Part shown: one piece after another, positions 10,205 to 28,748 of the stretch
Position numbering within the stretch: the stretch's first letter is position 1
How the letters are laid out: every line of letters begins with the position of its first letter
IMG/VR virus record: IMGVR_UViG_3300035698_009252
Span: 62,001 to 126,000 of that record
Direction: 5' to 3' (one strand)
Source of the DNA: a virus
Length of the DNA stretch: 64,000 nucleotides
Position numbers and translations under genes: made by a program
The notes under the pieces: generated by a model
Database searches by the model: none
Told to the model about the DNA's origin: nothing
Seen by the model: the letters and a program-made list of their open reading frames with translations, nothing else

Positions 10205-10615
10205 TTAGAACGCTCTTAGGTCCACCCTTCCCGATTCGGAACCGAAGGTATTTGAGAAAATCTTGTCATCATTGGGATGCCATCCGAACATCTTCAAGAA
10301 TTCCTGAAGGCCACGCGGCCCTTCGCCGTGGTAGCCAAAGCTGAACCCATTAAAAGTATGGGTTTCGGTGCTGCCATCCACCACCCACCTGAACCGTGCT
10401 TCCGTAATCCATTCAATGTGTTTGCTGTCGTAGGTAAAGGTCCCGTCGACCAAGAGATATCCAGCCTCCTTGATGCGCCGTGCATTTTCAAGGCTGTCGC
10501 GAGTCGCCCCTTCCCGCTTGAGCTGCAACATCTTCACGACCTGGAAGTCGCTTTTGAGAGCGACCAATTCCTTTGCCACCCCCAAAAGTTCTTTTGCCAC
10601 GGCTTGTCTGTTCAT
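10205..10615 (-). CDS. Leader-array protein (CTS-like), unknown body
   Basis: Start at the ATG of a TAATG junction with the upstream gene. N-terminus MNRQAVAKELLGVAKELVA is the shared amphipathic leader. The body (about 115 residues) has a helix ending RRIKEAG and a beta part with YLLVDGTFTYDSKHIEWI and FNGFSFGYHGEGPRG. Last member of the array in transcription order. Function unknown; packaging inferred from the leader. Confidence 0.65.
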   Translation of the reverse strand: MNRQAVAKELLGVAKELVALKSDFQVVKMLQLKREGATRDSLENARRIKEAGYLLVDGTFTYDSKHIEWITEARFRWVVDGSTETHTFNGFSFGYHGEGPRGLQEFLKMFGWHPNDDKIFSNTFGSESGRVDLRAF

Positions 10616-10962
10616 TACCAACCTCTCATGTATTCGGATATCTCATCACCGTACTTGCGCCAAAGTCGCCTAATCGGGGGAGCATTCAGCAGAAAATGCC
10701 CCTTAGCCGCTTCCAAGAATAGATAAACAGCATCTTTCCCCTTCGTCCCCCACTTGCCGTTCAGTTGCTTTTTAACAGCCGCTAAAGAGTCGACGACCTG
10801 CTTGACAATCGGGGCGGTATTCGGTCTGTCATCAACCGAAGCAAGAGCCCACTTCTCAAGACTCACATACAGCTTCGAAAGACGTTCTCGGGCCATTGGG
10901 TCGTCATCCGCAAACATCTCGGCAATCTCTACCAGTTCCTGTGCAATTGCTTCTCTTTTCAT
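10615..10962 (-). CDS. Leader-array protein (CTS-like), helical body
   Basis: 115 residues. Leader variant MKREAIAQELVEIAEMFAD, more acidic than the consensus. The body is helical, with a conserved-looking LNGKWGTKGKDAVYLFLEA and a C-terminal Tyr/Trp pair (EYMRGW). Coupled by TAATG to the next gene. Confidence 0.6.
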   Translation of the reverse strand: MKREAIAQELVEIAEMFADDDPMARERLSKLYVSLEKWALASVDDRPNTAPIVKQVVDSLAAVKKQLNGKWGTKGKDAVYLFLEAAKGHFLLNAPPIRRLWRKYGDEISEYMRGW

Positions 10963-10976
10963 ATCGCCCTCAATAT

Positions 10977-11555
10977 TTAGAACATCTTCATAAGGGATTT
11001 GGCATAAACCAACGTCAAAGCCCCCATAACCATACCCTCTTCATTGTTGTCGTCCTCGGCATCTAAGAGCATCATCCGCCCTTTGCGACGCATCGAGTCC
11101 AGCTTACCCTTGTCCATCCCTGACAACTTTTTGTAGACGGCCTTTGAAATCCTGTCTATCTCGGAACTGCTAAGGGATACTTCCAAATCCATATCCTTAA
11201 GAACGGATTTCAGCTTCCCCGCCGACAATAGCCCGGCACTATCACTCCGGTGTGCCAACTCGTCCTTGAGCATCCGTTCGATTATCTGATTAACATCACG
11301 GTCAGTCGTGTTGGCACGAGAAGGCGTCTGGAGCGCCCCCCTCGTCCCAACTTGGATATCCCACCAAACCCTTGTCCCGAGACTCCTGTCCGCCGGATTC
11401 CTTACGACATAGACATGGACCCCATCAATCTCTCCGGCCCAAGCATACGCGCCAAGACCTATATCCATTTTCCGAAGTCCCCTCAGAAAGTTCGGAGCCG
11501 CCATCAGTTCCTTAGCAACCCTCACCAACTCTTTTGCTACTGCTTGTCGGTTCAT
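10977..11555 (-). CDS. Leader-array protein (CTS-like), alpha/beta body
   Basis: 192 residues. Leader MNRQAVAKELVRVAKELMA. Residues 25-75 form a beta unit (GAYAWAGEIDGVHVYVVRNP, WWDIQVGTRG); the rest is helical with Ser/Asp-rich turns and a hydrophobic C-terminal helix (MGALTLVYAKSLMKMF). The N-terminal leader is nearly identical to that at 10205, so these two may be recent duplicates at their 5' ends only. Confidence 0.6.
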   Translation of the reverse strand: MNRQAVAKELVRVAKELMAAPNFLRGLRKMDIGLGAYAWAGEIDGVHVYVVRNPADRSLGTRVWWDIQVGTRGALQTPSRANTTDRDVNQIIERMLKDELAHRSDSAGLLSAGKLKSVLKDMDLEVSLSSSEIDRISKAVYKKLSGMDKGKLDSMRRKGRMMLLDAEDDNNEEGMVMGALTLVYAKSLMKMF

Positions 11556-11566
11556 TACGTCCCCCC

Positions 11567-11956
11567 TCAGCTCACATAGGCTGTCACGTCGTACCGGTCC
11601 AGCGGGTCATCGACACTACCGGCCCCCGCCGCAATTACGACTCCGTACAGCACGGTACGACGGCCCTTTTCATTATTGAAATACACTTCGAACTTCCACG
11701 TCTTGCTCTCGGGGACCCCGTCCCGGTTATTGGTATAGAAGTTGTCCGTCATCGCCCAGTCGAATGCGGCAGAATCCAGGGTCTTCCAAATCTGGTTAAC
11801 CCAGCGCCAATCGGTATCCCGGAGAAGCCCCTTTGGAGAGTTACGATGAATCACCTTGTTCACCTCGCGCCGGGCCTTGACATTCTTCATACCGGTGAGG
11901 GAGTTCTCATCTTCGGCCAGGTTCTCGGCGATTCTTATGATTCGTTTTAGGTCCAT
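11567..11956 (-). CDS. Leader-array protein, divergent leader
   Basis: Start at the ATG overlapping the upstream stop (TGATG). N-terminus MDLKRIIRIAENLAEDENS keeps the amphipathic pattern but not the ELVAVA core. The body has Trp/Phe-rich TDWRWVNQIWKTLDSAAFDW and beta strands with TWKFEVYFNNEKGRRTVLYG. 129 residues. Function unknown. Confidence 0.6.
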   Translation of the reverse strand: MDLKRIIRIAENLAEDENSLTGMKNVKARREVNKVIHRNSPKGLLRDTDWRWVNQIWKTLDSAAFDWAMTDNFYTNNRDGVPESKTWKFEVYFNNEKGRRTVLYGVVIAAGAGSVDDPLDRYDVTAYVS

Positions 11957-12855
11957 CAGTGCCCCCATCCCAGTGCTGTTTGATATTTCGGCTTTCCGTC
12001 CCACAGGGTAGCGTGGGCATATGAATTGATACGAACCGAGTTGCCAGGACTCACGCGCTTTCTCATTTTCGGGCCAGTGAATTTGCCAGGAGCCGCTGAG
12101 ACATAAGCGGCACCTCTCTCCTCCTTGACAATCTTGGACCCTATTTCCCGGATAATCACGCTCTTTTCGCCCGCCTCGACGACCTCGTAGAAATCGATAT
12201 TGGTCTGGTCATAGCCCCACGAGGTGTACAAAATCGAGCCCACCACCAACCCGTGCTTGAATTCGTTCCGTTCCTTCTGGCGCTTCTGCTTGTCCTTGAG
12301 CCGCCCCTGGCGCTGCTCAATAGTCTCATTCACCTTCTTTTCAAACCGGTTCATATCCCGGAACCGGAAATGCCACAAGGGTTTCTGTGCCCGGCCCTGG
12401 AACGCAACACCGTAAAGATTGCCGTTCTGCTCATAGCTCCACGCCTCAATGTCCACGTCCGAGGGTATTTTAACTTCCTGGATGTTCTGATGGCGTGCCG
12501 GATTCGGACGATAGAACTCCCGCTTTTGAACCATCCGAAGTGCGGTCCTCTCTCTGGAGGAAGCAAAATACACCCTGCGAATGTCTTTCAGGAGCCTCCG
12601 AACCTTCTCCGGGGTCACGCTGTTCAGTCTCCCCGCGTCAATTGTGTAATCGTCACCGTCGAACAAGTCCCAGCGGCCACTGTCCTTCTCGATGAATACA
12701 CGCATCCCCTTCTGCCTGCGACTGATATACTCAAGGCCGTTACCCGCGTCCATGTTCGCCCATGCCCGGCTCACATCAAAATCGGGGTCACCACGACGAG
12801 CCATCAAGTCCTTCGCTACGGCCACCAACTCTTTTGCCACTGCTTTCACATTCAT
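11956..12855 (-). CDS. Leader-array protein (CTS-like) with a SWGYDQTNIDFYEV domain
   Basis: 299 residues. Leader MNVKAVAKELVAVAKDLMARR. After a beta/helix part comes a very basic helix (RLKDKQKRQKERNEFKHG), then a small beta domain with SILYTSWGYDQTNIDFYEV, a motif I have seen in uncharacterised phage and bacterial proteins, and a C-terminal Lys/Arg-rich part (GKFTGPKMRKRVSPG). The basic helix suggests nucleic-acid contact. Function unknown. Confidence 0.6.
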   Translation of the reverse strand: MNVKAVAKELVAVAKDLMARRGDPDFDVSRAWANMDAGNGLEYISRRQKGMRVFIEKDSGRWDLFDGDDYTIDAGRLNSVTPEKVRRLLKDIRRVYFASSRERTALRMVQKREFYRPNPARHQNIQEVKIPSDVDIEAWSYEQNGNLYGVAFQGRAQKPLWHFRFRDMNRFEKKVNETIEQRQGRLKDKQKRQKERNEFKHGLVVGSILYTSWGYDQTNIDFYEVVEAGEKSVIIREIGSKIVKEERGAAYVSAAPGKFTGPKMRKRVSPGNSVRINSYAHATLWDGKPKYQTALGWGH

Positions 12856-12862
12856 AGTTCTC

Positions 12863-13273
12863 TTACCTTACGTTGTAATCGGCTTCTTTGGTCTCTTCCG
12901 AAAACGACTTGAGTTTGTACTTGGGGCTGTACTTCGTCTGCAAACGGGGCAATAGCTTATCCGCGTTTGCCTGGGTCCCGGCAATCACCTTCAACTTAGC
13001 CGATGTCACAAACCGACTGCCACGGTACTGTCCCAGGGAAATCTTCAGTTCGACGACCCTTATGCCACTGGCCGTTAAATCGTCCGTTAGGGCCTTTGTG
13101 ATGTCCACAACGGCCTGGTCTTCCCACTGGTTCTTGAGTTTCTTGGCCTTCAGGCGAATATCGAAAAAGACGCCCGCAAACAAATCGGTTGGGCGCTCTT
13201 TCGAGAAAAAGAACGAGGCAGCAACAGCCTCTGTGGCCGCGACTTGCCTCGTTATCCTTTTGATTCTCTCCAT
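12863..13273 (-). CDS. Unknown protein with divergent leader, after promoter B
   Basis: 136 residues. N-terminus MERIKRITRQVAATEAVAAS has leader-like amphipathicity. The body alternates strands and helices (FAGVFFDIRLKAKKL, IRVVELKISLGQYRGSRFV, SAKLKVIAGTQANADKLL), like a ferredoxin-like fold. First gene after the promoter-like element at 13284-13320. Not recognised. Confidence 0.55.
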   Translation of the reverse strand: MERIKRITRQVAATEAVAASFFFSKERPTDLFAGVFFDIRLKAKKLKNQWEDQAVVDITKALTDDLTASGIRVVELKISLGQYRGSRFVTSAKLKVIAGTQANADKLLPRLQTKYSPKYKLKSFSEETKEADYNVR

Positions 13274-13339: not shown

Positions 13340-13990
13340 CTACCCAGCAAATCGATTGCCCTTAGATGAGTTGTCCTTCAACCACAAGGGTTGAAGATTT
13401 TCCAATGCCCAGCACTCTCGGAACTGCTCATCATCTGGATTCTGCATGGAGAACCAACTTTTCGGCACAACATGGTCAACCTGCCACCCTTGCTTGCCTC
13501 CATAATTGTCCCAACTCATGCCATCCGAGAACTGCCCCTTCAAGTGGGCCATTAGCTCTTCCAATGTAAAATCGACCAGCTCTTCCCAATGACGACCGCC
13601 TTTGGAACTCCCGCCGTTTAGATGGTCACGCAAAGAATACCACACCTGGAAACCCACCCGCCGGGAGATTCGGATGCCTGGCTTACTCGTATATCGGCGA
13701 GAGGCGGCTGCTTGCAGTTCACGAGTCCGTGGCCGCTTCCCGTACTCCTTCGCATACACCCGTTGCCGGGCATTCCTCCGTTTTCGGAACTCCGGGTCGG
13801 CAGCATTCTTTCGATAACGAGCTAAAGCAGAAGCCTTCCGGGCCTCCTTGTTCTCCTGGTAACTCTGTTTACAATGCGCCTTGGCACAATCTCGACACCA
13901 GTTGAACAAGCCATCTTTGGCCTTACTATCCTTGCCGAACTCAGATACTACATCCTTCGGATGACCACATTTGGTACACCGTTTTTCCAT
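13340..13990 (-). CDS. HNH homing endonuclease-like protein
   Basis: 216 residues. N-terminal zinc-binding pattern (CTKCGHPK, then CRDCAKAHC), a long Arg/Lys helix region, and a C-terminal HNH core: QVDHVVPKSWF (H of the motif) followed by ALENLQPLWLKDNSSKGN (N and H-like positions). The family makes nicks or breaks at specific sites and is often mobile in phage genomes. It sits alone between promoter-like elements C and B, as an insertion would. No intron borders are evident. Confidence 0.8.
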   Translation of the reverse strand: MEKRCTKCGHPKDVVSEFGKDSKAKDGLFNWCRDCAKAHCKQSYQENKEARKASALARYRKNAADPEFRKRRNARQRVYAKEYGKRPRTRELQAAASRRYTSKPGIRISRRVGFQVWYSLRDHLNGGSSKGGRHWEELVDFTLEELMAHLKGQFSDGMSWDNYGGKQGWQVDHVVPKSWFSMQNPDDEQFRECWALENLQPLWLKDNSSKGNRFAG

Positions 13991-14000
13991 AATATGCCTC

Positions 14001-14030
14001 CATCTATGGTCGGCATATCAAAGAAAACTC
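14001..14030 (-). promoter_or_regulatory. Phage late promoter-like element C
   Basis: Minus strand TTTGATA, 8 nt, ATAGATGGAG, directly upstream of the HNH gene. The upstream GTGTGATAATTC part is degenerate in this copy. Confidence 0.7.
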
Positions 14031-14364
14031 AGTGAAAGCACATGAGACAGGCGGAGGGCATCAATAGTATCCATGAGACCACGGCGAAGCACATGCTCTT
14101 CAAACTACGAATGCTACTCACGAACTTCTGAGCCTTGACCGTCCCGGCACCGCCGAAAAACTGGGTTTTGGCGTGCCGGATATGTTCTTCGCGCATTTCG
14201 AAGACAAACACAACCTTCCGGTTTCCATTCGGGGACTGACCCGTCTCAGTCGTTACGAGAGGGAAATCCAGCGAGCACAAATAGGCCGCAAAATAAATGT
14301 CCGAAGTCCTATAGAGCTTCTTTTTAGCCTCAGACGCCCCGGACGTCTCCGTTTCCGTAGTCAT
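14029..14364 (-). CDS. DUF5659-like small protein with C-terminal membrane helix
   Basis: Start chosen at MTTETETSG behind GGGAGGCGGCGGC; longer readings lack a ribosome site. 111 residues. The core (LYRTSDIYFAAYLCSLDF through VVFVFEMREEHIRHA) resembles the DUF5659 family of small phage and bacterial proteins of unknown function. The last 30 residues (CFAVVSWILLMPSACLMCF) form one hydrophobic helix, probably membrane-inserted. Confidence 0.5.
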   Translation of the reverse strand: MTTETETSGASEAKKKLYRTSDIYFAAYLCSLDFPLVTTETGQSPNGNRKVVFVFEMREEHIRHAKTQFFGGAGTVKAQKFVSSIRSLKSMCFAVVSWILLMPSACLMCFH

Positions 14365-14490
14365 GCCGCCGCCTCCCTTACCTGTTCGATTTCGTATTGC
14401 CATCTGTGAGAGAGTCAGAACGAACAGTGATGACATTTCCGCAACTCCCGAATCTTTGGCCTGTAAGGTCATTGAATCTGGCTTTTCTTT

Positions 14491-14778
14491 TCACTTGGCC
14501 TCCCTCACATCGCCGCCGCCGTAATCGTAAGCCACGGTTTCCACTGGGGCTTTGCGCCCCTTCATCCGTTTTGCTGCCTTCGCGTTGCCATTCCGCATGG
14601 ATTCTCCGAAGGTACTTTTCCGGTTAATACCACCGTCAATCGCTAAAGCGAACGCGCTGAAAACGCGGGAGGCTCGGCCCCCGCACTTGCCACATTTGAC
14701 AGTGCGGGGAGCCTCACCCATACGAAACGGCTTTTCTGCTCGCGTTTCGCAACCGTTGCACTCGAACTCGTACAGCAT
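14491..14778 (-). CDS. FmdB-type zinc ribbon protein
   Basis: 95 residues. MLYEFECNGCETRAEK and VKCGKCGGRASRVFS supply two Cys pairs (CxxC and CxxC), the FmdB/putative regulatory zinc ribbon. Such proteins are common in phages next to structural genes; the role is unknown. The C-terminal half is Lys/Gly-rich and disordered. Confidence 0.65.
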   Translation of the reverse strand: MLYEFECNGCETRAEKPFRMGEAPRTVKCGKCGGRASRVFSAFALAIDGGINRKSTFGESMRNGNAKAAKRMKGRKAPVETVAYDYGGGDVREAK

Positions 14779-14781
14779 GGC

Positions 14782-15900
14782 TTACTCCGAGGCTACGGCT
14801 GTTCTGGTCACCTTCGTTGCCGTTTTGGCCTTGTTTTTCGACCCTCTCGGCCTACCCCTGCCCCGTCGAGGCGCTACTGCCGTTTTCCCGCCCGATTCGA
14901 GCTTTTCAAGGCGAGCCATAACAGCAGCCATGCCACCCTTCAACTCATCGTTCTCGGCCCGTAGAACGGCATTCTCGGCCTCTACAGCCACCTGAGCCCC
15001 TGCTTCCTTGGCCATGTCCGCCTCAAGGGCTTCCACGTCCGCATCTGACACAGTTGTGCCGGAAACGGCGAGCTGGGTTTCCCCAACGATTGAGGACGCG
15101 TCCGTGCCGCCAAGGACTTCCGTTGCCGCTTGCAGCTCTGGCGGGATGTCCTGGTCGATGACAGCCGCCGCCGTGGTGCCATCGGGGACTTCCACACCGG
15201 CCCGCTTGCGTGTCATTTCGACGTGCTTCTTGCGAACCTCGGCCTCGGCCCGCTTGCTTTCGGCATTGGCATCGGCTTCTTCCCGACTGGGAAGGTGTTG
15301 TCCCGCGTTCATGGGGATTTCGCTCCTGCCCACTCCCATACCAAGGCTGTCGTCATGGACCACCGGCATCGCCGCTCTCTGGCGCTTGAGAGCGACACGC
15401 TCGGCCATCGAAGCCATGTCGGTCTTGTCTGCCAAGTCGGCAAGCCTTTCCTCGACAGTCTCGTCGCCCTTGATGACTTCCATGGTCCTGTTGGCCGTCC
15501 GAGCACGGGCATCTGCACGCGAGGCTTCCTTTTCGGCCTGGTGGACCTTAGAGACTTGCGTATGGCGGATGTCAATGACCGGGTGGTCCGATGAATCATC
15601 CTGAACGATAGGCAAATCGTTGTTGGAACGACGAGGAGGGGCGTCCACAATCGTAGGAGCAATGCCTTTGACTTCGTCAAGCATCTCCGGCGAATATGGT
15701 ACAACCCAAGGGTCATCCGGGGTTTTCAGGGCTTGACGCTGGAGGATTTCCAGGTCACGGGTATCGTCGAACTTGCGTCCGTCGACGATGAGGATACCAC
15801 GCTCCTCATCGAGTTCAAGGACAGTCCCTCTTCCGAAGGTCTCCTTGATGTATCCGAGGTGCATTTGACTCGGAATAGTTAGAATCCATTTCGAATTCAT
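14782..15900 (-). CDS. Coiled-coil protein with AT-hook-like C-terminus
   Basis: Start at the third codon (MNSKWILTIPSQ), 6 nt after GAGGAG. About 372 residues. N-terminal 60 residues are beta-like (RGTVLELDEERGILIVDGRKF); the centre is a long charged, Ala-rich coiled coil (residues 110-340). The end carries RRGRGRPRGSKNKAKT, an AT-hook-type DNA-binding tail. Its leader RNA has hairpins and matches the leader of the gene at 37626-38273. Probably an abundant virion or DNA-binding protein; no family recognised. Confidence 0.55.
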   Translation of the reverse strand: MNSKWILTIPSQMHLGYIKETFGRGTVLELDEERGILIVDGRKFDDTRDLEILQRQALKTPDDPWVVPYSPEMLDEVKGIAPTIVDAPPRRSNNDLPIVQDDSSDHPVIDIRHTQVSKVHQAEKEASRADARARTANRTMEVIKGDETVEERLADLADKTDMASMAERVALKRQRAAMPVVHDDSLGMGVGRSEIPMNAGQHLPSREEADANAESKRAEAEVRKKHVEMTRKRAGVEVPDGTTAAAVIDQDIPPELQAATEVLGGTDASSIVGETQLAVSGTTVSDADVEALEADMAKEAGAQVAVEAENAVLRAENDELKGGMAAVMARLEKLESGGKTAVAPRRGRGRPRGSKNKAKTATKVTRTAVASE

Positions 15901-15930
15901 ATCCATCTCCTCTATATGGTGTTATATTTC

Positions 15931-15978: not shown

Positions 15979-16539
15979 TCAACCGAGTTTTCCGGCCAAC
16001 TCAACAAGCATGCCATATTCAACCGGGTCTCGGAAAGCATCTTTTCCATCTTTTATGAGGGCCTTGACACGGTCCTTTACTGCATCCGCGCAGCCCTCGT
16101 AAAAGTATTTCTTCTGTTTGTCTATGGCGTCAAAAAGGTCATCATCCCCCAGCAAGGAATAGAGGGCGTCGCTAGGGTCGGTCTTCAAGCTGCTGGGCTC
16201 ATCACCCTGCCGCATGTTGTTGACCATCTTGACGATTTTATCAACGTCCCTGGAGTTGTTCGGTAACGCCCATGTCCCAGCAACTCGCGTGCTTCCCAAT
16301 TTCCCGTTCCAGGGATGGCGTATCTTCAATCGTTTCATTCCGACGCCGACGGCATCTTTAAGGTCAATGATATTACGGATGCCGCTCATCTCAGAGATAT
16401 ACCGTATCAGGCGGTCTCCGTCCCGACGGGATATACCCAAGTCAGTGACATATCTCTCAATCTGGCCCTCCGTAATACCGGACGAGACGAGAGCTTCGGC
16501 AACGGTTATCAGCCGCTTTGCTATCTTCTGGCTATCCAT
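15979..16539 (-). CDS. Leader-array protein (CTS-like), helical body
   Basis: Start at MDSQKIAKRLITVAEALVS, the leader. 186 residues. Body begins with a helix-turn-helix-like segment (ITEGQIERYVTDLGISRRDG), then RLKIRHPWNGKLGSTRVAGTW and an acidic/Lys helical end. Separated from the main array by other genes, so the leader is not restricted to one operon. Confidence 0.6.
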   Translation of the reverse strand: MDSQKIAKRLITVAEALVSSGITEGQIERYVTDLGISRRDGDRLIRYISEMSGIRNIIDLKDAVGVGMKRLKIRHPWNGKLGSTRVAGTWALPNNSRDVDKIVKMVNNMRQGDEPSSLKTDPSDALYSLLGDDDLFDAIDKQKKYFYEGCADAVKDRVKALIKDGKDAFRDPVEYGMLVELAGKLG

Positions 16540-17137: not shown

Positions 17138-17416
17138 TTATTGAAATGTGTCCGGGTCCTTGAACGCATCAATGGTCTGACGCACTTCATTCGCCGTCCC
17201 CATGTTCACATCGGACGGGTCTGCGTCATCCATCTCCCGAACCAACGCTTCGCGGGCCTGCATCATCGCCTTAAACGGTTTGTCGGCCTTGGTCAGATAG
17301 TCCTGGTAATCCGTCCAGGCTTCATCTGCCTTCTTCAAGGCACGCACCAAGCCACCGGCTGCCGCAAGTTCTCTTGCCACGGCCACTAACTCTCTTGCTA
17401 TACGCGCATCGTTCAT
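17138..17416 (-). CDS. Leader-array protein (CTS-like), small helical
   Basis: 92 residues. Leader MNDARIARELVAVARELAA, then a charged helical body (KKADEAWTDYQDYLTKADKP) with an acidic turn. The first 15 residues are identical or nearly identical to those of the next gene upstream while the bodies differ. Function unknown. Confidence 0.65.
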   Translation of the reverse strand: MNDARIARELVAVARELAAAGGLVRALKKADEAWTDYQDYLTKADKPFKAMMQAREALVREMDDADPSDVNMGTANEVRQTIDAFKDPDTFQ

Positions 17417-17423
17417 ATCGAGT

Positions 17424-17642
17424 CTACATCTGGCTCAAAGCCCTTGCGATGTCCTTTTCCAGCCTAACCACCTTACGGTTTCTCATCTTCCTCGGGACAC
17501 CCCCGAGGGCTTTGAGGATATCGCTCTTCAATTCTTCTTGGACTTCAGGAGACAAGTCTCCGATTCCTCCTGCAAGCCGCTCGGCAGCCGTCAAGTCCTT
17601 CGCTACGGCCACTAACTCCCGAGCTATACGTGCGTCGTTCAT
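17424..17642 (-). CDS. Leader-array protein (CTS-like), 72 residues
   Basis: Leader MNDARIARELVAVAKDLTA. The body is 50 residues with acidic then basic helices (LSPEVQEELKSDILKALGG, VPRKMRNRKVVRLEKDIA). Shortest clear member, so the leader makes up a quarter of the protein. Confidence 0.65.
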   Translation of the reverse strand: MNDARIARELVAVAKDLTAAERLAGGIGDLSPEVQEELKSDILKALGGVPRKMRNRKVVRLEKDIARALSQM

Positions 17643-17864
17643 TTACCATTCCAGAGAGTTGTTCTTAACGGTTAAAGTCCGTGGCTTGACGTCCTCGATG
17701 GCCTTCGTCCTGCTCTTCTTTATCCACCACTTGCCCTTGTACTTGAACCGCTGGCCACTTCTCAGGTCCGGCCATGACGGACGGCCCCGGTCCATCTGAG
17801 GAGCCTTCGCCGTCAAGTCCTTGGCCACTGCTACCAGCTCGCGTGCTATACGTTGATTATCCAT
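17643..17864 (-). CDS. Leader-array protein (CTS-like), small beta body
   Basis: 73 residues. Leader MDNQRIARELVAVAKDLTA, then DLRSGQRFKYKGKWWIKKS and a strand-rich end (PRTLTVKNNSLEW), like a small SH3-type barrel. Similar barrel-like pieces occur at 18477 (IPIGSKFKVSGKRQKWLKI). Abuts both neighbours. Confidence 0.6.
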   Translation of the reverse strand: MDNQRIARELVAVAKDLTAKAPQMDRGRPSWPDLRSGQRFKYKGKWWIKKSRTKAIEDVKPRTLTVKNNSLEW

Positions 17865-21028: not shown

Positions 21029-21423
21029 TACCTTCTCCAGAAGCCCGCTCTCTTGCCAATAGCATCCAGCGCCCTATAAATGTCCTTTGGGCTTGGTATG
21101 TCTTCGTTAAATTTCTTACGGACGTTACGTATGATGCTGCCGTTGACCCATCCATCCACCGAAATAAACCATGGCTTGTTGACCGGCTTGAACAGGCTTA
21201 TGCGAACCTGGACGCCGTCCTTGCCACCCGCGCTATCCAGAATAAACCGAACACCACCAACGAACTTCTCTGGCCTCTCTATGACATACCCACGCGACTT
21301 GGCTTCAACCAGAAAATGCGTTGCTCCATCCACGAAGGCATCCATCCACTCGTCGGAAACAAGCCCGGCCATCAAGTCCCTTGCCACGGCCACTAATTCC
21401 CTAGCTATCTTGCGGTTGTCCAT
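21028..21423 (-). CDS. Leader-array protein (CTS-like)
   Basis: Start at the ATG overlapping the upstream TGA. 131 residues. Leader MDNRKIARELVAVARDLMA. The body starts with an acidic aromatic helix (SDEWMDAFVDGATHFLVEA), then strands (VGGVRFILDSAGGKDGVQV, KPWFISVDGWVNG). Function unknown. Confidence 0.65.
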   Translation of the reverse strand: MDNRKIARELVAVARDLMAGLVSDEWMDAFVDGATHFLVEAKSRGYVIERPEKFVGGVRFILDSAGGKDGVQVRISLFKPVNKPWFISVDGWVNGSIIRNVRKKFNEDIPSPKDIYRALDAIGKRAGFWRR

Positions 21424-21668
21424 CAGTTCTGCTCCCTCCACGCCTTGTCCAGGTAATCGGCAATCTCGTCGATGTCCTCCGCCATCCCCCGAAGCCTACG
21501 AAGAACTTGTCTCAATTCGAGTTGCTTGGCCGCGTTCTGAAGCGTTTTTAGGGAGAATAGAATGCGCTGACTGGCGCTATGGATATCATTGACGTCGGGA
21601 TTAGACTGACCAGCCGTCAAGTCCTTAGCCACGGCTACCAACTCTCTTGCCACTGATTTACTGTTCAC
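21423..21668 (-). CDS. Leader-array protein (CTS-like), helical
   Basis: 81 residues. Leader MNSKSVARELVAVAKDLTA; the body is two helices with heptad Leu (QRILFSLKTLQNAAKQLEL), a likely helical hairpin. ATGA overlap with the upstream gene. Confidence 0.65.
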   Translation of the reverse strand: MNSKSVARELVAVAKDLTAGQSNPDVNDIHSASQRILFSLKTLQNAAKQLELRQVLRRLRGMAEDIDEIADYLDKAWREQN

Positions 21669-21937
21669 GAATCTACCTCTTTTATCGCCTTGCGGACATC
21701 ACTGTCGGCCTTCGTCACGGCCCGAGTCAGCTTGCCCATTGCGGTGTTGATTTTCCGGGTGTACTCGGGAGGTTCCTTGAAGGTGTAAGAGTCCTCGGAG
21801 AACCAAAGAGCACCGACATCCTCCGCAAGTTGTTGAAGTGTCTCAACAGCCTGTCTCCGCTCATCCCACGGGTTACGGGCAGCCGTCAACTCCCTCGCCA
21901 CAGATACCAACTCTTTTGCCACGAATTCGTCGTTCAT
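21665..21937 (-). CDS. Leader-array protein (CTS-like), helical
   Basis: Start at MNDEFVAKELVSVARELTA after GAGGAGATTTCG. 90 residues. The body is helical with RRQAVETLQQLAEDVGALW and a Lys/Ala helix. ATGA overlap with the gene upstream (21934). Confidence 0.65.
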   Translation of the reverse strand: MNDEFVAKELVSVARELTAARNPWDERRQAVETLQQLAEDVGALWFSEDSYTFKEPPEYTRKINTAMGKLTRAVTKADSDVRKAIKEVDS

Positions 21938-22326
21938 CGAAATCTCCTCGCCACTTTGAGAAGTGTATCTTTTATCCACTTTGCCGCATAAGCAGCAATT
22001 TCATTCCTTCGGTGTGGCTCCACATATCGGAAGGTTTCCCTTGCCTGTTCTCTACCACCCGGCACCTTTTTCGTCGAGAAAATGACCTGCCACTCCCCTG
22101 AATCAGACACTCTGTCACCGAAATCAGTCTGGGCAACATCATCGTCGAACCAGATATGGGCATAGAGAGGAATGTCCAGCCCCGACACATTGAACTCAAT
22201 GGAGACGTGCTTGCCGGGCCGGATTTTCAAAAGGGCCGGAGCCATGCTCCCGGCCTTTCGAGGACGAGATACAGACAAGTCCTTGGCCACTGCTATCAGC
22301 TCGCGTGCAATCTTCTGTTCGTTCAT
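21934..22326 (-). CDS. Leader-array protein (CTS-like) with KHVSIEFN strand
   Basis: 130 residues. Leader MNEQKIARELIAVAKDLSV. Beta body with GKHVSIEFNVSGLDIPLYAH; the protein at 23200 carries a related GKHVSIEANF element, so the two may share a fold. C-terminal helix basic. Function unknown. Confidence 0.65.
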   Translation of the reverse strand: MNEQKIARELIAVAKDLSVSRPRKAGSMAPALLKIRPGKHVSIEFNVSGLDIPLYAHIWFDDDVAQTDFGDRVSDSGEWQVIFSTKKVPGGREQARETFRYVEPHRRNEIAAYAAKWIKDTLLKVARRFR

Positions 22327-22333: not shown

Positions 22334-22747
22334 CTATCTTATCGCGCTCTCCAACATGTCGATTATATCCTGGTCGTAATCGTTCCGGCTTGACTCAACA
22401 TCCTTCGGATTCCTCGACATCTTGCGCACGGAATCCCGAAATTCACTGTAATCCGTATCCTCTCCGATTGAGTTTGCGATGTGCCTTCCATCCCTCCAAT
22501 CTCCATACAGAACGATGTCTATATCCTCATACCCCTTGGAGCGGAGCGCATCTACCCACGCTTTAATAAGGTCATCCCGGTTGTCATGGGACAGCATATC
22601 GCGACTGCCCCAAAACCCCATACCACCAGACATTTTCTTGCCTAGTTTGAAAATTTCCCGGTATGACAGTTTTCTCGCAACCCGGCTTCCAGCCATCAAC
22701 TCCCGTGCCAGGGCTGCCAGTTCTTTCGCCAAATCATCCGACTTCAT
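22334..22747 (-). CDS. Leader-array protein (CTS-like), alpha/beta body
   Basis: Start at MKSDDLAKELAALARELMA; longer readings add unrelated sequence from the shadow of the gene upstream. 137 residues. The body contains DDLIKAWVDALRSKGYEDI and a strand IDIVLYGDWRDGRHIAN. Function unknown. Confidence 0.6.
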   Translation of the reverse strand: MKSDDLAKELAALARELMAGSRVARKLSYREIFKLGKKMSGGMGFWGSRDMLSHDNRDDLIKAWVDALRSKGYEDIDIVLYGDWRDGRHIANSIGEDTDYSEFRDSVRKMSRNPKDVESSRNDYDQDIIDMLESAIR

Positions 22748-23199: not shown

Positions 23200-23829
23200 T
23201 CAATCCACTGCACAATATTGATGATACGGTATTCCAGCCTTGGACATCGAATTCAGAACTTCCCCGAATGTTGCTCGCTTTATCCAGCTCTCGTTGTCCG
23301 TTGCCCAACGATAGAACATCTTGATTGACGTCTTTTTCGCGCCACGAACTGTCGGGATGCAGGTCGGCTCGTTGAACTTGTCATCCTTGTCACGGACCGA
23401 GAACGTATCAAAATTGGCTTCGATGGAGACGTGCTTGCCATCTATCTTGATGGGGGCAAACCCACCAGGCGGAACATCTACACCCCGGAGAACGCGCTCG
23501 TCTGTATTGGCGCTGTTGTAACTTGACGCCTCGTTGATAGCCTCGACGCCCTTCTCCATGATTTTGACGGCCTGCGCGTAATTCCGGGCGCGAGCCAAGT
23601 CATCCATCATGTCCTCGACTTCGGCCTTAGCGTCGTCGGCATAATCCAGGTCGTAAGCGGAGAACTGGTTGCACCTCTTACCACGCTTGCCCGCATTGGT
23701 CAAGTCAGTCACCTGGACTGACGAGCGGTACCGATGGATACGGATGGAGCCCTGCTCGACAGTCTTGCCGACACTTAGGCCACCAAGAAGGCTCTTTGCG
23801 ATTTTCAGGAGTACCCGAGCTTCGTCCAT
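23200..23829 (-). CDS. Leader-array protein, LLKIAKSLLGG-type leader
   Basis: 209 residues. N-terminus MDEARVLLKIAKSLLGG. Residues 25-50 beta, 60-100 helical and acidic, then PIKIDGKHVSIEANFDTF and a C-terminal WIKRATFGEVLNSM. Shares the GKHVSIE element with 21934. Function unknown. Confidence 0.6.
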   Translation of the reverse strand: MDEARVLLKIAKSLLGGLSVGKTVEQGSIRIHRYRSSVQVTDLTNAGKRGKRCNQFSAYDLDYADDAKAEVEDMMDDLARARNYAQAVKIMEKGVEAINEASSYNSANTDERVLRGVDVPPGGFAPIKIDGKHVSIEANFDTFSVRDKDDKFNEPTCIPTVRGAKKTSIKMFYRWATDNESWIKRATFGEVLNSMSKAGIPYHQYCAVD

Positions 23830-24200
23830 TAGATGTAGCCCCTCTGTCCAGGCTCTTCGTTCTTGATATAGTCGGCTTTGCCCTTAATGGCCTCAACCAA
23901 CTTCATCACCTTTTCCTCGTCACCCTCGATGCCGATGTAGCTGGCGTAATCCGGCTCGGGGCTACGTTTGCCGTTGTAGTACTCACCGGAGATGGGGTCA
24001 TTCGCGGTAACGACTAGGATGCCTGGACCCTTCCAGACCCATCCCTTGCTCGTCTTCCGGGGCCTTGTACTCACGCCGACACTCTTGAGAGCCTGAATCC
24101 ACTTGGATGCCCGGATTTCGGTCAAGTCAAACCCGTGCTCATACGCTGTAAGCTTCCGGGCCACCCGTATCAGTTCTCTCGCGATTTTCTGCGTTGTCAT
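23829..24200 (-). CDS. Leader-array protein (CTS-like)
   Basis: 123 residues. Leader MTTQKIARELIRVARKLTA. The body looks like a ferredoxin-like unit with SKWIQALKSVGVSTRPRKTS, GPGILVVTANDP and DEEKVMKLVEAIKGKADYI. Shares its first base with the stop of the next upstream gene region. Function unknown. Confidence 0.65.
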   Translation of the reverse strand: MTTQKIARELIRVARKLTAYEHGFDLTEIRASKWIQALKSVGVSTRPRKTSKGWVWKGPGILVVTANDPISGEYYNGKRSPEPDYASYIGIEGDEEKVMKLVEAIKGKADYIKNEEPGQRGYI

Positions 24201-24204
24201 ACTC

Positions 24205-25179
24205 TTAGCCCCTTGTCATCTTGATACGTTCGTACCCCTTGCGTTCCTTCGTCCGCAGGTGTTTTTCACAAGCGGCAATCGCCTTGGTCAAACTGCTTAC
24301 GGGACCACCGAAATACTTCGCGGTCAAATCGTAGGCCCGCTCGATGATACCGATACGGCCCGAGCAATTCCAGCCAACGTAGACCTCTTCTCCCATGTCG
24401 TTTTCGACCGAGTACACGACATAATAATGGTATTTGTTGGCATTGGCCCTCGGGTCAACAATGACCAGGTAGGACGACCACCTTCGGTCCAAGTCTCGTG
24501 GTCTTGCAGACACACCGCCGTACTCAGCAAGCGTGGCCACAACCTTTATACGCATCTTCTTGGAGAGCGCCGGTGCATAACTCGTCAGGGACTGCTTGAC
24601 TTCCTTATTGCGCATTCTTATGTCCACGTCGCGCCGGATGGGCTCCCAGTCAGCCTTTTTGACCTTCTTCTTGCACTTGACACAATAGCCAGTCTGCTCC
24701 AGGACCTTCGTGCCACAGTCCGGGCACTTGAAAGTTTCAGCCGCCTTTTTGACCTTTTTCTTGCACTTGACACAGAAACCAGTCTGCTCCAGGACCTTCG
24801 TTCCGCAGTCCGGGCACTTGAAAGTTTCAGCAGCCTTCTTGTCCTTCTTTTCCTTGTCCTTCAGGAAATCGGGCTTGGGCTCATTCTCCTTGCCATCATT
24901 GTCCTTATCCTTGTCCTTCCACTGCTTCTTGAAGGCTTCGGGGACCTCACCTTTCCCAGACACCAATGCCTCGGCGATGGCAACCAGACGTTCGGAGACG
25001 GAGGACTTCTTGTCCTTCTTTTCCTTGTCTTTCAGGAAGTCAGGCTTCGGCTCATTCTCTTTGCCGTCGTTGTCCTTATCCTTGTCTTTCCACTGCTTCT
25101 TGAAAGCCTCGGGGACTTCACCCTTACCTGCCAGCAACCTTGCCACCGCTATCAGCTCTTTCGCTATACGTCTATTCAT
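24205..25179 (-). CDS. Leader-array protein with duplicated leader-linker and duplicated zinc ribbon
   Basis: 324 residues. Leader MNRRIAKELIAVARLLAG is followed by a Lys/Asp linker (residues 18-58). A second diverged leader (SERLVAIAEALVSG, residues 62-75) and a nearly identical linker (75-115) follow. Then come two 30-residue zinc ribbons (116-145 and 146-175), each with CPDCGTKVLEQTG and CVKC. The C-terminal 150 residues form an alpha/beta domain (YHYYVVYSVENDMGEEVYV). Tandem duplications are clear at protein and DNA level. Confidence 0.7.
   Translation of the reverse strand: MNRRIAKELIAVARLLAGKGEVPEAFKKQWKDKDKDNDGKENEPKPDFLKDKEKKDKKSSVSERLVAIAEALVSGKGEVPEAFKKQWKDKDKDNDGKENEPKPDFLKDKEKKDKKAAETFKCPDCGTKVLEQTGFCVKCKKKVKKAAETFKCPDCGTKVLEQTGYCVKCKKKVKKADWEPIRRDVDIRMRNKEVKQSLTSYAPALSKKMRIKVVATLAEYGGVSARPRDLDRRWSSYLVIVDPRANANKYHYYVVYSVENDMGEEVYVGWNCSGRIGIIERAYDLTAKYFGGPVSSLTKAIAACEKHLRTKERKGYERIKMTRG
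24655..24834 (-). repeat. Tandem 90-bp duplication coding two zinc ribbons
   Basis: Copies at 24745-24834 and 24655-24744, adjacent and nearly identical; each codes one CxxC...CxxC ribbon of 30 residues. Confidence 0.8.
24835..25128 (-). repeat. 171-bp-period duplication coding leader tail and Lys/Asp linker
   Basis: Copies at 25006-25128 and 24835-24957. Each codes a 41-residue block starting GKGEVPEAFKKQWKDKDKD. The unit also carries the leader, which has diverged in the second copy. Confidence 0.8.
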
Positions 25180-25472
25180 GTCAATTCTCCTATGGCACGC
25201 TCTAGCGCCTTTTGCGTTTTCTCCAAATTATCTACTTCGCGAGTCAGTTTTGACAACTTTTGCAGGGCCTTCCGGTCAAGTGTCGCATCCACGGCGTTGT
25301 TTATACGGGACCGGAGTGAGTGAACCATCAACTTCAATGGCTCGGTATCCTCTTGAGCCCATTGCATATAGCGAGCGACATCCATCACCTTGACCCCTGT
25401 CAATTCCTTCTTACCGGAGATAAGTTCCTTGGCTATGGCCACCAGTCTGCGTGCTACACGTTCTCTATTCAC
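25176..25472 (-). CDS. Leader-array protein (CTS-like), coiled coil
   Basis: 98 residues. Leader MNRERVARRLVAIAKELIS; the body is helical with a coiled-coil end (LQKLSKLTREVDNLEKTQKA). ATGA overlap with the next gene. Function unknown. Confidence 0.65.
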   Translation of the reverse strand: MNRERVARRLVAIAKELISGKKELTGVKVMDVARYMQWAQEDTEPLKLMVHSLRSRINNAVDATLDRKALQKLSKLTREVDNLEKTQKALERAIGELT

Positions 25473-25484
25473 GTCAATTCTCCG

Positions 25485-25889
25485 TTACAGCATTCTCTTT
25501 ATTGCTCTCTCAAGTCTACCCACGTCCATTACCCTTTTCAGCTTGACGGAAACCAGGAACGGGTATCCTTGTTCCCTCGGGCGGAGCGCCCGAATCCTCC
25601 CGCTATTCGCAAATATGGACAATCCCGCCTTCCCCAAGACATCTCCCAGTCTGGCAAAAACACGTTCGGCCTCCTTCTCTACCTCTCCCTGCATGTCTAA
25701 CGTGTCGATGGCATCCAGGTCCTCTCCCCGCAAGTAATCCCCCTCGGGGGTGACAATCGTTCTCAGGGCAATAGAATCCTCCGATACCGACACCAGCTCA
25801 AAACTGGGCCACTCTGGCTCGGATGCCGCGACATTCCGCCCAACCAGTTCACGCGCTACAGCAGCCAGTTCCTGTGCTATTTTATCCAT
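25485..25889 (-). CDS. Leader-array protein (CTS-like), alpha/beta body
   Basis: 134 residues. Leader MDKIAQELAAVARELVGRN, one residue shorter in front of the core than most. The body has strands (FELVSVSEDSIALRTIVTP), an acidic helix, and a C-terminal PFLVSVKLKRVMDVGRLE. Function unknown. Confidence 0.65.
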   Translation of the reverse strand: MDKIAQELAAVARELVGRNVAASEPEWPSFELVSVSEDSIALRTIVTPEGDYLRGEDLDAIDTLDMQGEVEKEAERVFARLGDVLGKAGLSIFANSGRIRALRPREQGYPFLVSVKLKRVMDVGRLERAIKRML

Positions 25890-26573
25890 TTACCGGCCTT
25901 TACTGATTTCAAATCGGTCATTTGCTTTGAACCAAATACGTCCAAGCTGTGAGCCATTCGTCCCGCCAGTCACATGTTCCCAATTCAAATCGACCAGGCC
26001 CCCTATGATACCGTCCTTCAAGATTCTCTCGGTGAAGACCACACTCAGGGTCAGCTTTTTGATGGTCATGCCCATAATACCGACGTCATCCTCCAGCCCG
26101 GTCTCCTCGAAGTAGAGATAGCCACGCTGACGCTTGGGTGCCCCCAATGAGGGCTTGTGTCCGAAAGCACTACGGATGGCCGCTTCCACTTTTCCCTTTG
26201 AAGCCATAAGCGTTTTTACGCGATCTTCCACGGCGGCGTCCTCTATCGCAGACCCACCCACCAAATTCTTGGCCAATCCCACCAATTCCTGAGCCATCTT
26301 GTTATCTTTCATGTTCAATCTCCGAGGGCTTGAAGCCCTTCTCATCGCTTTTTCAACCACCTTTGTCATAATCTTCTCCTGCTCTCGAAGGGGAAGCGAT
26401 TCAAAATCTGTGGGTACATCCGTACGCCTTGTCTTATTGTACAGCTCGCCATACCCAAGGGCCTTGAAAGCCTTATCGATATCCATATGTTTCTCATGGA
26501 ATCGGCTCATAACGTCAACAGCGATATCCTCGGCGCTATCCTCATAGTCTTGCTTCGAGCCACGGGCGTTCAT
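25890..26573 (-). CDS. Leader-array protein with the leader internal; probable second start at 26312
   Basis: ATGA overlap sets the start at MNARGSKQDYEDSAED, giving 227 residues. The CTS-like leader (MKDNKMAQELVGLAKNLVG) begins at residue 88. Its ATG at 26312 has a ribosome site (GGAG, 8 nt spacer), so a 140-residue product with an N-terminal leader is likely. Same arrangement as 19852-20559. The upstream 87 residues are helical and charged; the downstream body is beta-rich (GYLYFEETGLEDDVGIMG). Confidence 0.6.
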   Translation of the reverse strand: MNARGSKQDYEDSAEDIAVDVMSRFHEKHMDIDKAFKALGYGELYNKTRRTDVPTDFESLPLREQEKIMTKVVEKAMRRASSPRRLNMKDNKMAQELVGLAKNLVGGSAIEDAAVEDRVKTLMASKGKVEAAIRSAFGHKPSLGAPKRQRGYLYFEETGLEDDVGIMGMTIKKLTLSVVFTERILKDGIIGGLVDLNWEHVTGGTNGSQLGRIWFKANDRFEISKGR

Positions 26574-27613
26574 TTCAACTCCACCATTACGGTAATCCAA
26601 CTCTTCTCCCCATCCCCATAGTTTATGCGGACAATGGCCTGCCGGTATGGAGCAAGTAGCGGCTCAAGTATCTTTTTGAAGTTGTCAGTCTCCCTTTCGA
26701 CCATATCCCGGTACGTGCTATACCCAACATCGCTTTCTCCCTCTTTCGGCAAATCGGACCGATAGGAACCTTTAATACGGGTATTGCCACTGGAAATCTT
26801 CGCGTCATCCTTCATCCAGGGACTCTTCCTGGAAATGGCCGTATCGATGGCGTTGCTAACGCCCTTCGCTATTTTCTCCCTATTCGCAATGGCATCCGTC
26901 TCGCCCTTCAATCCACTCCACCCCTTCAGGGCCTCCAACATCTTCTGAGCCGCTTGTTTAGGGGACATTGACGTTGGTGTGCCATAGCTGCCAAACACTA
27001 CCCCAGGCCCCTCTGCCGATGTGGTATTTTCGGTAAGCGTAATTTCACGCTTCATCCCATCCGAATTTCTTCCATCAACGCGCAAGATGACCTGGTACAT
27101 CACCCCGGATGGATAGTCCTTCTTCTGCCACGGAATCACTTCCAGGGCCTTCGGGTCTTCCAGTTTCGAGCGAATAATGCGAACGACGGACTGGGAGAAT
27201 TTCTTAAGGGCCGGAGGAATGGCCTTTTTGGAAAGGGTTTGGACCACCTTCTGGGCCTGGCCGATTTGCCTGGTAAACCGCTTTATCATCACGTCGGCAT
27301 CTTTAACAGCCCGCTGTACGGTCTTGTCTTCGGGGAAGTTCGTCAGGATTTGCTGCACTTCCTTCTGCACCCGGTAAGCCGATTGAATGCCATCCTGGGC
27401 CTTCTTGAGCACGACAAACTGGCCATCCACCTCCGGGTCGAGACCTGCCTGGAAGTGCATGGAAAATGTCCCGATGGTGTCGTCGATATTGTCGGCCAAC
27501 TCATCAAGAGTACCCAAAGTGCGTAGAAGCCCCTTCAGGAGCCCTTTAGAGGCATCTGCTTCAAGCCGCCGGGCAATATTTGACATGCGTACTGGAAAGG
27601 CAATTTTCTTCAT
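26570..27613 (-). CDS. Large leader-array protein, variant leader
   Basis: 347 residues. N-terminus MKKIAFPVRMSNIARRLEAD; MSNIARRLEADAS matches the leader pattern and could be the start, but lacks a ribosome site. Residues 30-150 are helical with coiled-coil character; 165-230 are beta (YQVILRVDGRNSDGMKREI); the rest is mixed with a final strand pair (KSWITVMVELK). Function unknown. Confidence 0.6.
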   Translation of the reverse strand: MKKIAFPVRMSNIARRLEADASKGLLKGLLRTLGTLDELADNIDDTIGTFSMHFQAGLDPEVDGQFVVLKKAQDGIQSAYRVQKEVQQILTNFPEDKTVQRAVKDADVMIKRFTRQIGQAQKVVQTLSKKAIPPALKKFSQSVVRIIRSKLEDPKALEVIPWQKKDYPSGVMYQVILRVDGRNSDGMKREITLTENTTSAEGPGVVFGSYGTPTSMSPKQAAQKMLEALKGWSGLKGETDAIANREKIAKGVSNAIDTAISRKSPWMKDDAKISSGNTRIKGSYRSDLPKEGESDVGYSTYRDMVERETDNFKKILEPLLAPYRQAIVRINYGDGEKSWITVMVELK

Positions 27614-27616
27614 TTT

Positions 27617-27862
27617 TTACTCGTTTGTCAGAGCCGGGAACACGTCGTAATCGTTCTGCAAAGACTTTACCGCTTCCCCAACCTTATCCGCCGGGATTTC
27701 CCCGGTGACCCTCTGGCCCCTCACTTTCAAGCGGGCTGACGGGAAGTCCGCAGAAAATGCTTCGGCCTCATCCTGCCCAACGAAGTACAGCTCGACTTCA
27801 ACATTCTGGGATGCAGTCGTCATCCGTTCTGCAATCCTCTGTAACCTGGTATTGTCGCTCAT
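27617..27862 (-). CDS. Leader-array protein, variant leader, 81 residues
   Basis: N-terminus MSDNTRLQRIAERMTTASQN; the rest resembles a ferredoxin-like or ACT-like half (VEVELYFVGQDEAEAFSAD, ARLKVRGQRVTGEIP). ATGA overlap with the upstream gene. Function unknown. Confidence 0.6.
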   Translation of the reverse strand: MSDNTRLQRIAERMTTASQNVEVELYFVGQDEAEAFSADFPSARLKVRGQRVTGEIPADKVGEAVKSLQNDYDVFPALTNE

Positions 27863-28485
27863 CTCGCGTTCCTTCCTTGAGTGGTAATACGAATGCCTTG
27901 GGCCATGATTTTGACCAAGCCCTTCTCTGCCAGGCTCTCGATAATGGGGTTGTCTTTGCCGTACTCGCCGAGCCGGTGCCGCAGGAACTCTTGCGCCCGG
28001 TAACTGCTCTTGATGCCTCCAACAATACCCAGAGCCGCCTTCTCGTCCGGGGTGAGGATAACATCGTCATCCGGCTCCGGCATTAACTTGTCGACATCTC
28101 CCGGTCGCACGTAGATACGAAGGAAATTGCCCCGGCCACCAGCTTCCCCGGCAATAACCACGGAACCATTCGGCACATTAAAGGATTCCTCCCGGTCGAG
28201 AGCCCGGTCCTCAAAGGGATTTGAGCCACCCCACGAGCCTTGCTGAGCGTCACTGATGCGACCAGTACTCAAGTCAACCGTCACGGACAGGGCTCTATTC
28301 CCCTCAAATGCCGTCGAAACGGAATACTTTGAGTCGTAGATGACCTCGATGTCCCGTCTGCCGTACCTGAGCCGTTTTAAGGCCCTTTGAACGGCATCAG
28401 GGAGGTCCCTAACGGCTACATGTATTCCACCCATGGCCTTAAGAGAGATTTTCCCTGCAATATGGACAATTCTACGTTCGTCCAC
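27859..28485 (-). CDS. Leader-array protein, variant leader, 208 residues
   Basis: N-terminus MDERRIVHIAGKISLKAMGG. Strand-rich middle (RRDIEVIYDSKYSVSTAFEG, GSVVIAGEAGGRGNFLRIYV) and a C-terminal helical part that could be a winged-helix-like fold (RHRLGEYGKDNPIIESLAEK). Function unknown. Confidence 0.55.
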   Translation of the reverse strand: MDERRIVHIAGKISLKAMGGIHVAVRDLPDAVQRALKRLRYGRRDIEVIYDSKYSVSTAFEGNRALSVTVDLSTGRISDAQQGSWGGSNPFEDRALDREESFNVPNGSVVIAGEAGGRGNFLRIYVRPGDVDKLMPEPDDDVILTPDEKAALGIVGGIKSSYRAQEFLRHRLGEYGKDNPIIESLAEKGLVKIMAQGIRITTQGRNAR

Positions 28486-28496
28486 GGCAGCCCCCT

Positions 28497-28748
28497 TTAC
28501 GCCTCGGCCAATACCTGCTCCAGGGCACCCACCAGGTCTTCAACCGTGGAGTTCGGGCGAATCACGCCAATGCCGAACTGGTTCAGCTTCCGGCGCTTCT
28601 TCTGGCTCAGTTTGTTGAGTTTCGTCCGAAGGTTACGGATACGCCCCGCAAATGCCTCGTCCACTTCCTCGCCGTCATCGGCTGCTGTCAACTCGCGAGC
28701 CAGTGAAAGGAGCCTCTTCGCCGCCTGAATTCTCTTCGTGTTGGTCAT
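28497..28748 (-). CDS. Leader-array protein (CTS-like), first of the array
   Basis: 83 residues. Leader MTNTKRIQAAKRLLSLARELTAAD, here read as the stretch after MTNTK; LLSLARELTAAD matches the core. The body is basic helices (KLNKLSQKKRRKLNQFG) with an acidic end. Ribosome site GGAGGATAGC. Follows a small hairpin (GGCTGAAAACAGCC). Confidence 0.6.
   Translation of the reverse strand: MTNTKRIQAAKRLLSLARELTAADDGEEVDEAFAGRIRNLRTKLNKLSQKKRRKLNQFGIGVIRPNSTVEDLVGALEQVLAEA

Follow-up and report, generated by a model that had tools for sequence, protein, structure and literature searches.

A shared N-terminal leader on about 30 unrelated proteins of an uncultured giant phage is probably an address tag for the phage head

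By analysing a 64,000-nucleotide stretch of viral DNA (the window; positions 62001-126000 of the 139,603-base viral contig IMGVR_UViG_3300035698_009252, itself probably a fragment), we found that about 30 genes clustered at 10205-28748 start with variants of one helical leader of 18 residues and continue in unrelated bodies. This leader is probably an address tag by which these proteins are loaded into the phage head, to be injected into the host. Some of the same proteins bear a different tag in related phages, so the leader probably acts as an address label. The tagged records are all metagenomic and mostly fragments.

Results

All 37 genes called in the block at 10205-28748 lie on the minus strand, their starts being predicted, and 26 of them begin directly at the start codon with the amphipathic motif [DN]xxx[IV]A[RK]EL[VL]x[VLI]A[KR][ED]Lx[AGS] (profile scores of 10-32 bits). 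A purine-rich stretch is found just upstream of most of these 26 starts. Six further genes of the block (11567, 12863, 19385, 22749, 26570 and 27859) start with divergent variants, three of which (11567, 12863 and 27859) are backed by homology to tagged relatives; a sequence-only reading of this DNA, which had counted about 30 leader genes here, was right. The genes at 13340-15906 are mostly untagged, as are their homologues in relatives.

An iterated profile search over the window and its relatives, a check of the kind that the sequence-only reading had named, gave 108 matches of at least 10 bits; shuffled sets gave 0.3 each, and reversed proteins gave no match. A seed-free comparison of the first 24 residues in all non-homologous gene pairs of the record put 246 pairs over the threshold, compared with 3 after shuffling, and its largest cluster joined 29 genes. 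The bodies behind the leader are unrelated, which bears out the same reading: no pair of tagged bodies in the window matches at BLASTP E<=1e-3, and clustering of the 124 tagged bodies collected across all relatives produced 93 clusters, of which 80 have a single member. A single N-terminal sequence on unrelated proteins is one criterion of a T4-type system, and this is what the window holds.

Conservation spans leader positions 4-17 (0 being the residue after the start methionine) and then ends, the fixed positions being A5, L8, A12, L15 and A, G or S at 17. The leaders are amphipathic, with a mean hydrophobic moment of 0.56 compared with 0.28 when shuffled, and the consensus carries charged residues every 3-4 positions, with no continuous hydrophobic core as in Sec/Tat signals. 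Synonymous codons at identical residues agree among leaders at 0.34, the chance expectation being 0.25; since this is near random, selection acts on the peptide and not on the DNA, and the leaders are not fresh copies. Position 17 is A, G or S in 84 of 91 N-terminal leaders, compared with 4 of the 14 copies at C-termini (Fisher p = 5e-7, which is a guide only because the sequences are related and not independent). A small residue there would suit a cleavage site, and equally a helix cap or the start of a linker.

The C-terminal copies belong to a head gene. The head genes of the window are of the Bacillus phage G type and run in the order protease (52556), 95-residue protein, acidic scaffold-like protein, Lys/Asp/Glu-rich protein, the gene at 49792-50286 and major capsid protein (MCP):

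52556-53548, minus strand: prohead (head maturation) protease (PHROG 18299, E 2.7e-11)
52257-52544, minus strand: small core protein whose C-terminus, SESEALARRLVAMAKRLMT, is the tag motif, conserved in 14 relatives
51453-52136, minus strand: acidic scaffold-like core protein (by position and composition)
50323-51360, minus strand: Lys/Asp/Glu-rich core or scaffold protein, alternative start 51450
49792-50286: small protein in the same position as the phage G capsid decoration protein gp26 (by position)
48798-49658, minus strand: MCP of the Bacillus phage G gp27 type (PDB 6wkk, E 2.9e-64)
60915-62876, minus strand: portal protein

The MCP is 38% identical to phage G gp27, 69% to that of LR745208 (a 485-kb uncultured phage) and 48% to that of Tunturi_5; by the criterion of a gp27-type MCP, the window falls in the phage G-like head lineage. 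The prohead protease and acidic core proteins pointed out by the sequence-only reading are both present, the former by its PHROG match and the latter by position and composition. With core or scaffold-like genes lying between protease and MCP, the window has the prohead protease plus separate prohead core proteins of a T4-type system. In relatives, protease open reading frames with inteins and homing-endonuclease domains occur at L006:2832-7289, L007:2638-4770, L048:4084-6372 and L065:22-3147.

The 95-residue core protein encoded at 52257, between the protease and the scaffold-like gene, ends in the tag motif, and 14 relatives have a homologue (31-48% identical) with this ending. Across the 15 aligned sequences the only invariant residues are N65, A68, N71 and W72, plus A83, L86 and A90 of the tag. 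Scored with a matrix built from N-terminal leaders only, these C-termini average 21.9 bits; none of 20000 column permutations matched that score, nor did any of 20000 in which hydrophobic and polar classes were kept. The termini of the other core proteins have negative tag scores.

The leader of the window, hereafter tag A, was found by profile in nine records whose MCPs are closely related (clade A; 87-96% mutual identity among those aligned) and in none of LR745208, Tunturi_5, G002 and G007, phage G giving a single weak antisense match. Contig-wide searches used strict DNA patterns, and among 2.9 million viral contigs that for tag A matched 7, each of which carries an MCP of this clade and had been listed by it. 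The 84,980 species genomes of bacteria and archaea gave no match. LR745208, examined blind, has a different common leader (LRSKLIRLAHENPALRPQLLPLLKEA; 11 copies at E<1e-14), nearly all N-terminal and on unrelated bodies. This second leader, tag B, has the consensus LRSKLIRLAHxNPxLRPxLLPLLKEA and belongs to a sister capsid clade made up of the megaphage LR745208 and its relatives. Its pattern matches about 15 contigs, of which every one of at least 138 kb carries an LR745208-type MCP (clade B, 87-100% identical); the contigs that lack an MCP match are fragments of at most 76 kb. All nine such clade B records hold tag B, in 5-15 copies each, and none of the nine holds tag A; tag B is absent from the clade A records G000, G009 and G010 and from G002 and G007. 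In a third clade (G002, 356 kb), 17 genes share yet another leader, approximately MKKIxxxLxxIAxxLEK, which is weaker than the first two (25 pairs compared with 1.7 shuffled). The MCP-based capsid clades are cleanly separated. The C-terminus of the clade B protease was also tried as a site of tag A and rejected, with scores of -13 to +11.

Two bodies are common to clades A and B, each with its own clade's tag. That of 23200-23829 (MDEARVLLKIAKSLLGG) recurs at 42-43% identity behind tag B in two clade B phages, L191 (MDLRNRLLKLAHDNPPLRRVLLPLLREA) and LR745208, and that of 27859-28485 (39% identical) stands behind tag B in LR745208. A spacer-like module of the FPTQDALDKYLKEHPDADKSNHKV type likewise occurs after tag A and after tag B. 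The CCA-adding enzyme is tagged in the head operon of the window and in L116, and its homologue in G001 (49% identical), about 100 kb from the G001 head genes, has no tag. We also observed a module of about 25 residues, approximately M-D-F-P-T-Q-D-A-x-D-K-Y-[ML]-K-E-H-P-D-A-[DN]-K-S-x-H-K-V, directly after tag A or B in otherwise different proteins (L008:5032, L028:3534, L033:3252, L038:2722, L067:1103, L118:18323 and L176:2066).

Outside the block, the sequence-only reading had placed the leader at eight more sites in the window. It is canonical at 36499, 53841 and 57816; at 34581, 35897, 57553, 59575 and 63457 we find only a looser class, IAxRVAxxF. Two further tagged genes lie outside the window at record positions 1831 and 2502. 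The annotated members are:

34581-35609 (start approximate), minus strand: AAA ATPase with looser leader MNDNIAERVARSFVAA
35897-36502, minus strand: protein with looser leader MNEARIVERVAS; ADP-ribosyltransferase-like YHGTT by eye, with no Pfam match
36499-37536 (true start 37536), minus strand: tagged gene (profile); HELAH (HExxH) zinc-peptidase-like signature by eye
53841-54365 (start 54365), minus strand: tagged gene near the protease gene (profile)
57816-59291, minus strand: CCA-adding enzyme with leader MNGLVKEVLKVAREILAAS, in the head operon

For 11567 and 12863, bodies that are homologous within clade A bear the canonical leader in some cases and a looser one in others, which suggests that the looser leaders are equivalent to it. 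RVAxxF is enriched among clade A N-termini (10 compared with 1.2 expected in this record; examples are 34581, 35897, 59575 and 63457), and the C-termini of clade A proteases, that of the window at 52556-53548 included, resemble RVAxxF. The head-operon position of 59575 is occupied elsewhere by very long proteins of 2129 aa (G001, L163:115-6504) and 1257 aa (L116:7566-11339); those at L163:115-6504 and L116:7566-11339 have no Pfam match, and part of 59575 is conserved within both.

The tagged genes of the block, with the evidence for each in brackets, are:

10205-10615, minus strand: tagged gene, MNRQAVAKELLGVAKELVAL; tagged body homologue L109:7782-8492 (profile, homology)
10615-10962, minus strand: tagged gene, MKREAIAQELVEIAEMFADD (profile, 15 bits)
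10977-11555, minus strand: tagged gene; homologue L044:3460 starts MNKISRDLIQVAKSIVAG (profile, homology)
11567-11968, minus strand: variant leader MDLKRIIRIAENLAED; canonical leader on homologues L042:931 and L118:17668 (homology)
11956-12855, minus strand: tagged gene; homologue L170:2252-3133 has the leader twice (profile, homology)
12863-13273, minus strand: variant leader MERIKRITRQVAA; homologue L115:9612 has canonical MRDLLARELTGLARALVA (homology)
15979-16539, minus strand: tagged gene, MDSQKIAKRLITVAEALVSS (profile)
17138-17416, minus strand: tagged gene (profile)
17424-17642, minus strand: tagged gene (profile)
17643-17864, minus strand: tagged gene, MDNQRIARELVAVAKDLTAK, best match (profile)
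17864-18118, minus strand: tagged gene (profile)
18115-18480, minus strand: tagged gene (profile)
18477-19073, minus strand: tagged gene, GTG start; body partly recurs within larger L006 and L007 proteins (profile, homology)
19075-19332, minus strand: tagged gene (profile)
19385-19855, minus strand: possible variant leader MNEERIATIARNLSAG, weak
19852-20310, minus strand: tagged gene, internal ATG start; longer reading frame to 20640 possible (profile)
20573-21028, minus strand: tagged gene (profile)
21028-21423, minus strand: tagged gene (profile)
21423-21668, minus strand: tagged gene, GTG start (profile)
21665-21937, minus strand: tagged gene (profile)
21934-22326, minus strand: tagged gene (profile)
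22334-22747, minus strand: tagged gene (profile)
23200-23829, minus strand: tagged gene; same body with tag B in clade B phages (homology)
23829-24200, minus strand: tagged gene (profile)
24205-25179, minus strand: tagged gene; second leader-like copy at residue 56, charged spacer repeats, zinc ribbons (profile)
25176-25472, minus strand: tagged gene, GTG start (profile)
25485-25889, minus strand: tagged gene (profile)
25890-26312, minus strand: tagged gene, internal ATG start (profile)
27859-28485, minus strand: variant leader MDERRIVHIAGKISLKA; body 39% identical to an LR745208 protein starting with tag B (homology)
28497-28748, minus strand: tagged gene (profile)

Recognisable tag carriers in the window and its relatives are the CCA-adding enzyme, the AAA ATPase (looser tag), a topoisomerase IB (L112:9150), a DUF7007 protein, a rubrerythrin-like protein, zinc ribbons and a borderline S-adenosylmethionine lyase (27.9 bits, the cut-off being 28). 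The tag forms an extension ahead of the domain, which begins at residue 39 in the CCA enzyme, 32 in topoisomerase IB, 31 in the DUF7007 protein and 42 in the rubrerythrin-like protein. The DNA polymerase, DnaB-type helicase, single-stranded DNA-binding protein (SSB), exonuclease, terminase, portal and MCP all lack a tag. No MuF or portal domain appears among the listed Pfam matches of 131 tagged proteins (for 90 of them, 25 of 42 families are listed), searching PDB by profile with the tagged proteins yielded no match, and PADLOC returned weak matches only. In an AlphaFold model of the 23200 protein, residues 2-16 form a low-confidence helix ahead of a better-predicted body, and a fold search with this model found nothing significant in PDB or BFVD; the model of 27859 is poor.

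Other genes of the record include one resembling an acyl carrier protein by eye (window 31496-31789), a large protein with a long Pro-Glu/Asp repeat that adjoins tagged genes (window 38371-40761) and a RecQ-like helicase with an intein inserted at its DEAH box (window 40872-43391; VDEAH, then CFIGDTMVLTPSGERRI ... GSLVHN, then CISRWGHDF). The DNA polymerase is divided by a split intein (record 23286-28253, L002:3286-8253): the gene at 25446-28253 ends with the intein N-part, that at 23286-24500 begins with the C-part, and an endonuclease-like gene with zinc fingers (24500-25396) sits between them.

Discussion

We consider it likely that the leader is an N-terminal prohead address tag whose cargo travels with the DNA and enters the host, that tag and receptor co-evolve, and that cargo is re-tagged between lineages. 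The earlier proposal of head-packaged cargo, partly supported, stands as the best-supported reading, favoured by evidence that the sequence-only reading did not have: the C-terminal motif on the core protein, the restriction to one capsid clade and the swapping of tags between clades. The tag would direct dozens of unrelated small proteins into the prohead, its amphipathic helix probably docking on the prohead partner of the 52257 C-terminal helix or pairing with that helix, and the cargo, packed alongside the DNA, would accompany it into the host during infection. Tags differ between head lineages, as would be expected if tag and receptor evolve together, and cargo genes may move between lineages and become re-tagged there. 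Docking, packaging and injection are steps that we infer from sequence. We see an even chance that this is a giant-phage family with lineage-specific, interchangeable head address codes, in which the tag mimics or pairs with the phage's own prohead-core helix and fast-changing effectors are recruited and re-targeted by tag swap.

Several observations weigh against packaging into the head. The phages are uncultured and known from metagenomes, no T4-type cleavage motif is evident, and most tagged bodies have no known domain. The core-protein copy of the tag is confined to clade A, and a clade B core protein ending in tag B, sought beside the clade B MCP, was not found. Neither clade D (G007, 109 kb) nor the examined parts of phage G and Tunturi_5 yielded a common leader, so some relatives manage without one or use one that escaped detection.

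One tag on many bodies is compatible with any address, and the cargo includes possibly cytoplasmic enzymes (CCA-adding enzyme, topoisomerase IB), so the leader could target another intracellular site, such as a replication compartment, a membrane or a phage-built hub. We think this unlikely, since there is no tag on the DNA polymerase, DnaB-type helicase, SSB or exonuclease, a core protein of the protease-scaffold module has the motif as its C-terminus, tag type tracks capsid type, and the CCA enzyme bears the tag within the head operon but not outside it. A dimerisation or coiled-coil module uniting small proteins, for instance in a host-takeover complex, with the core protein as a coincidental user, would fit both the amphipathic helix (moment 0.56 compared with 0.28 shuffled) and the tandem leader copies inside single proteins. 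It leaves unexplained why the tag changes wholesale with capsid clade while bodies persist, and why the motif stands exactly at the C-terminus of a head protein in one relative after another, and we regard it as improbable.

The tandem same-strand arrangement of the genes and a codon agreement slightly over chance could also be the traces of one expanded gene family, its bodies diverged past recognition and the leader its most conserved part. We disfavour this as highly improbable, because the bodies belong to different families (CCA enzyme, AAA, topoisomerase IB, ferritin-like, DUF7007, zinc ribbons) and clade B has the same bodies with another leader. The location at gene starts would also fit a signal peptide for secretion, or an element that acts in translation or as RNA; with synonymous codons near random, the motif also C-terminal and internal, and no Sec/Tat-like hydrophobic core, such an origin is scarcely credible.

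If the prohead address reading is true, the tag alone would list the injected protein arsenal of an uncultured giant-phage clade, with dozens of candidate early effectors or anti-defence proteins per genome that are unrecognisable by homology. It would add a further type of prohead import signal, with a likely receptor helix, to those of T4 and P1, and the identical cargo under different tags would be a natural experiment. The tag might also become a tool for loading proteins into very large capsids.

A tblastn search of 50,697 phage records gave no match to the leader at E<=10, its sensitivity being low with so short a query; within that limit no T4 kinship was found for the leader, which the sequence-only reading had called not T4-like in sequence. 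Our searches of the open-access literature found no description of these tags, and as far as our searches reach, their scale, the core-protein copy and the lineage-specific, swapped tags are undescribed. Encapsulin cargo-loading peptides and scaffold C-terminal helices, for example that of P22, are terminal peptides that dock cargo or scaffold inside an HK97-fold shell. Their likeness to the tag is a working analogy only.

In T4, IPI-IPIII and Alt carry a short N-terminal capsid targeting sequence (CTS) that takes diverse packaged anti-host proteins into the prohead core (PMC3012670). Like the CTS, the leader is one N-terminal sequence on diverse proteins in a phage with a prohead protease; unlike it, the leader occurs on about 30 genes in one record, the core protein also ends in the tag, and relatives use other tags. 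The N-terminal 30 residues of P1 DarB suffice to carry a reporter to the capsid (PMC9024508), a result for one protein, whereas here the signal is common to many. SPN3US/phiKZ-type giant phages have N-terminal propeptides of 20-24 residues on some packaged head proteins (PMC10052503), which are cleaved by gp245 at a mapped motif, in contrast to the single helix motif found here across unrelated proteins. MuF-fused and polyvalent effectors are diverse enzymes thought to be packaged and injected (PMC9503650, PMC5512222), delivered by fusion to a head protein or within a long polypeptide, whereas here a short tag stands on separate proteins. By analogy, the tag would work like the T4 CTS and the P1 DarB signal, on a larger scale and in lineage-specific form.

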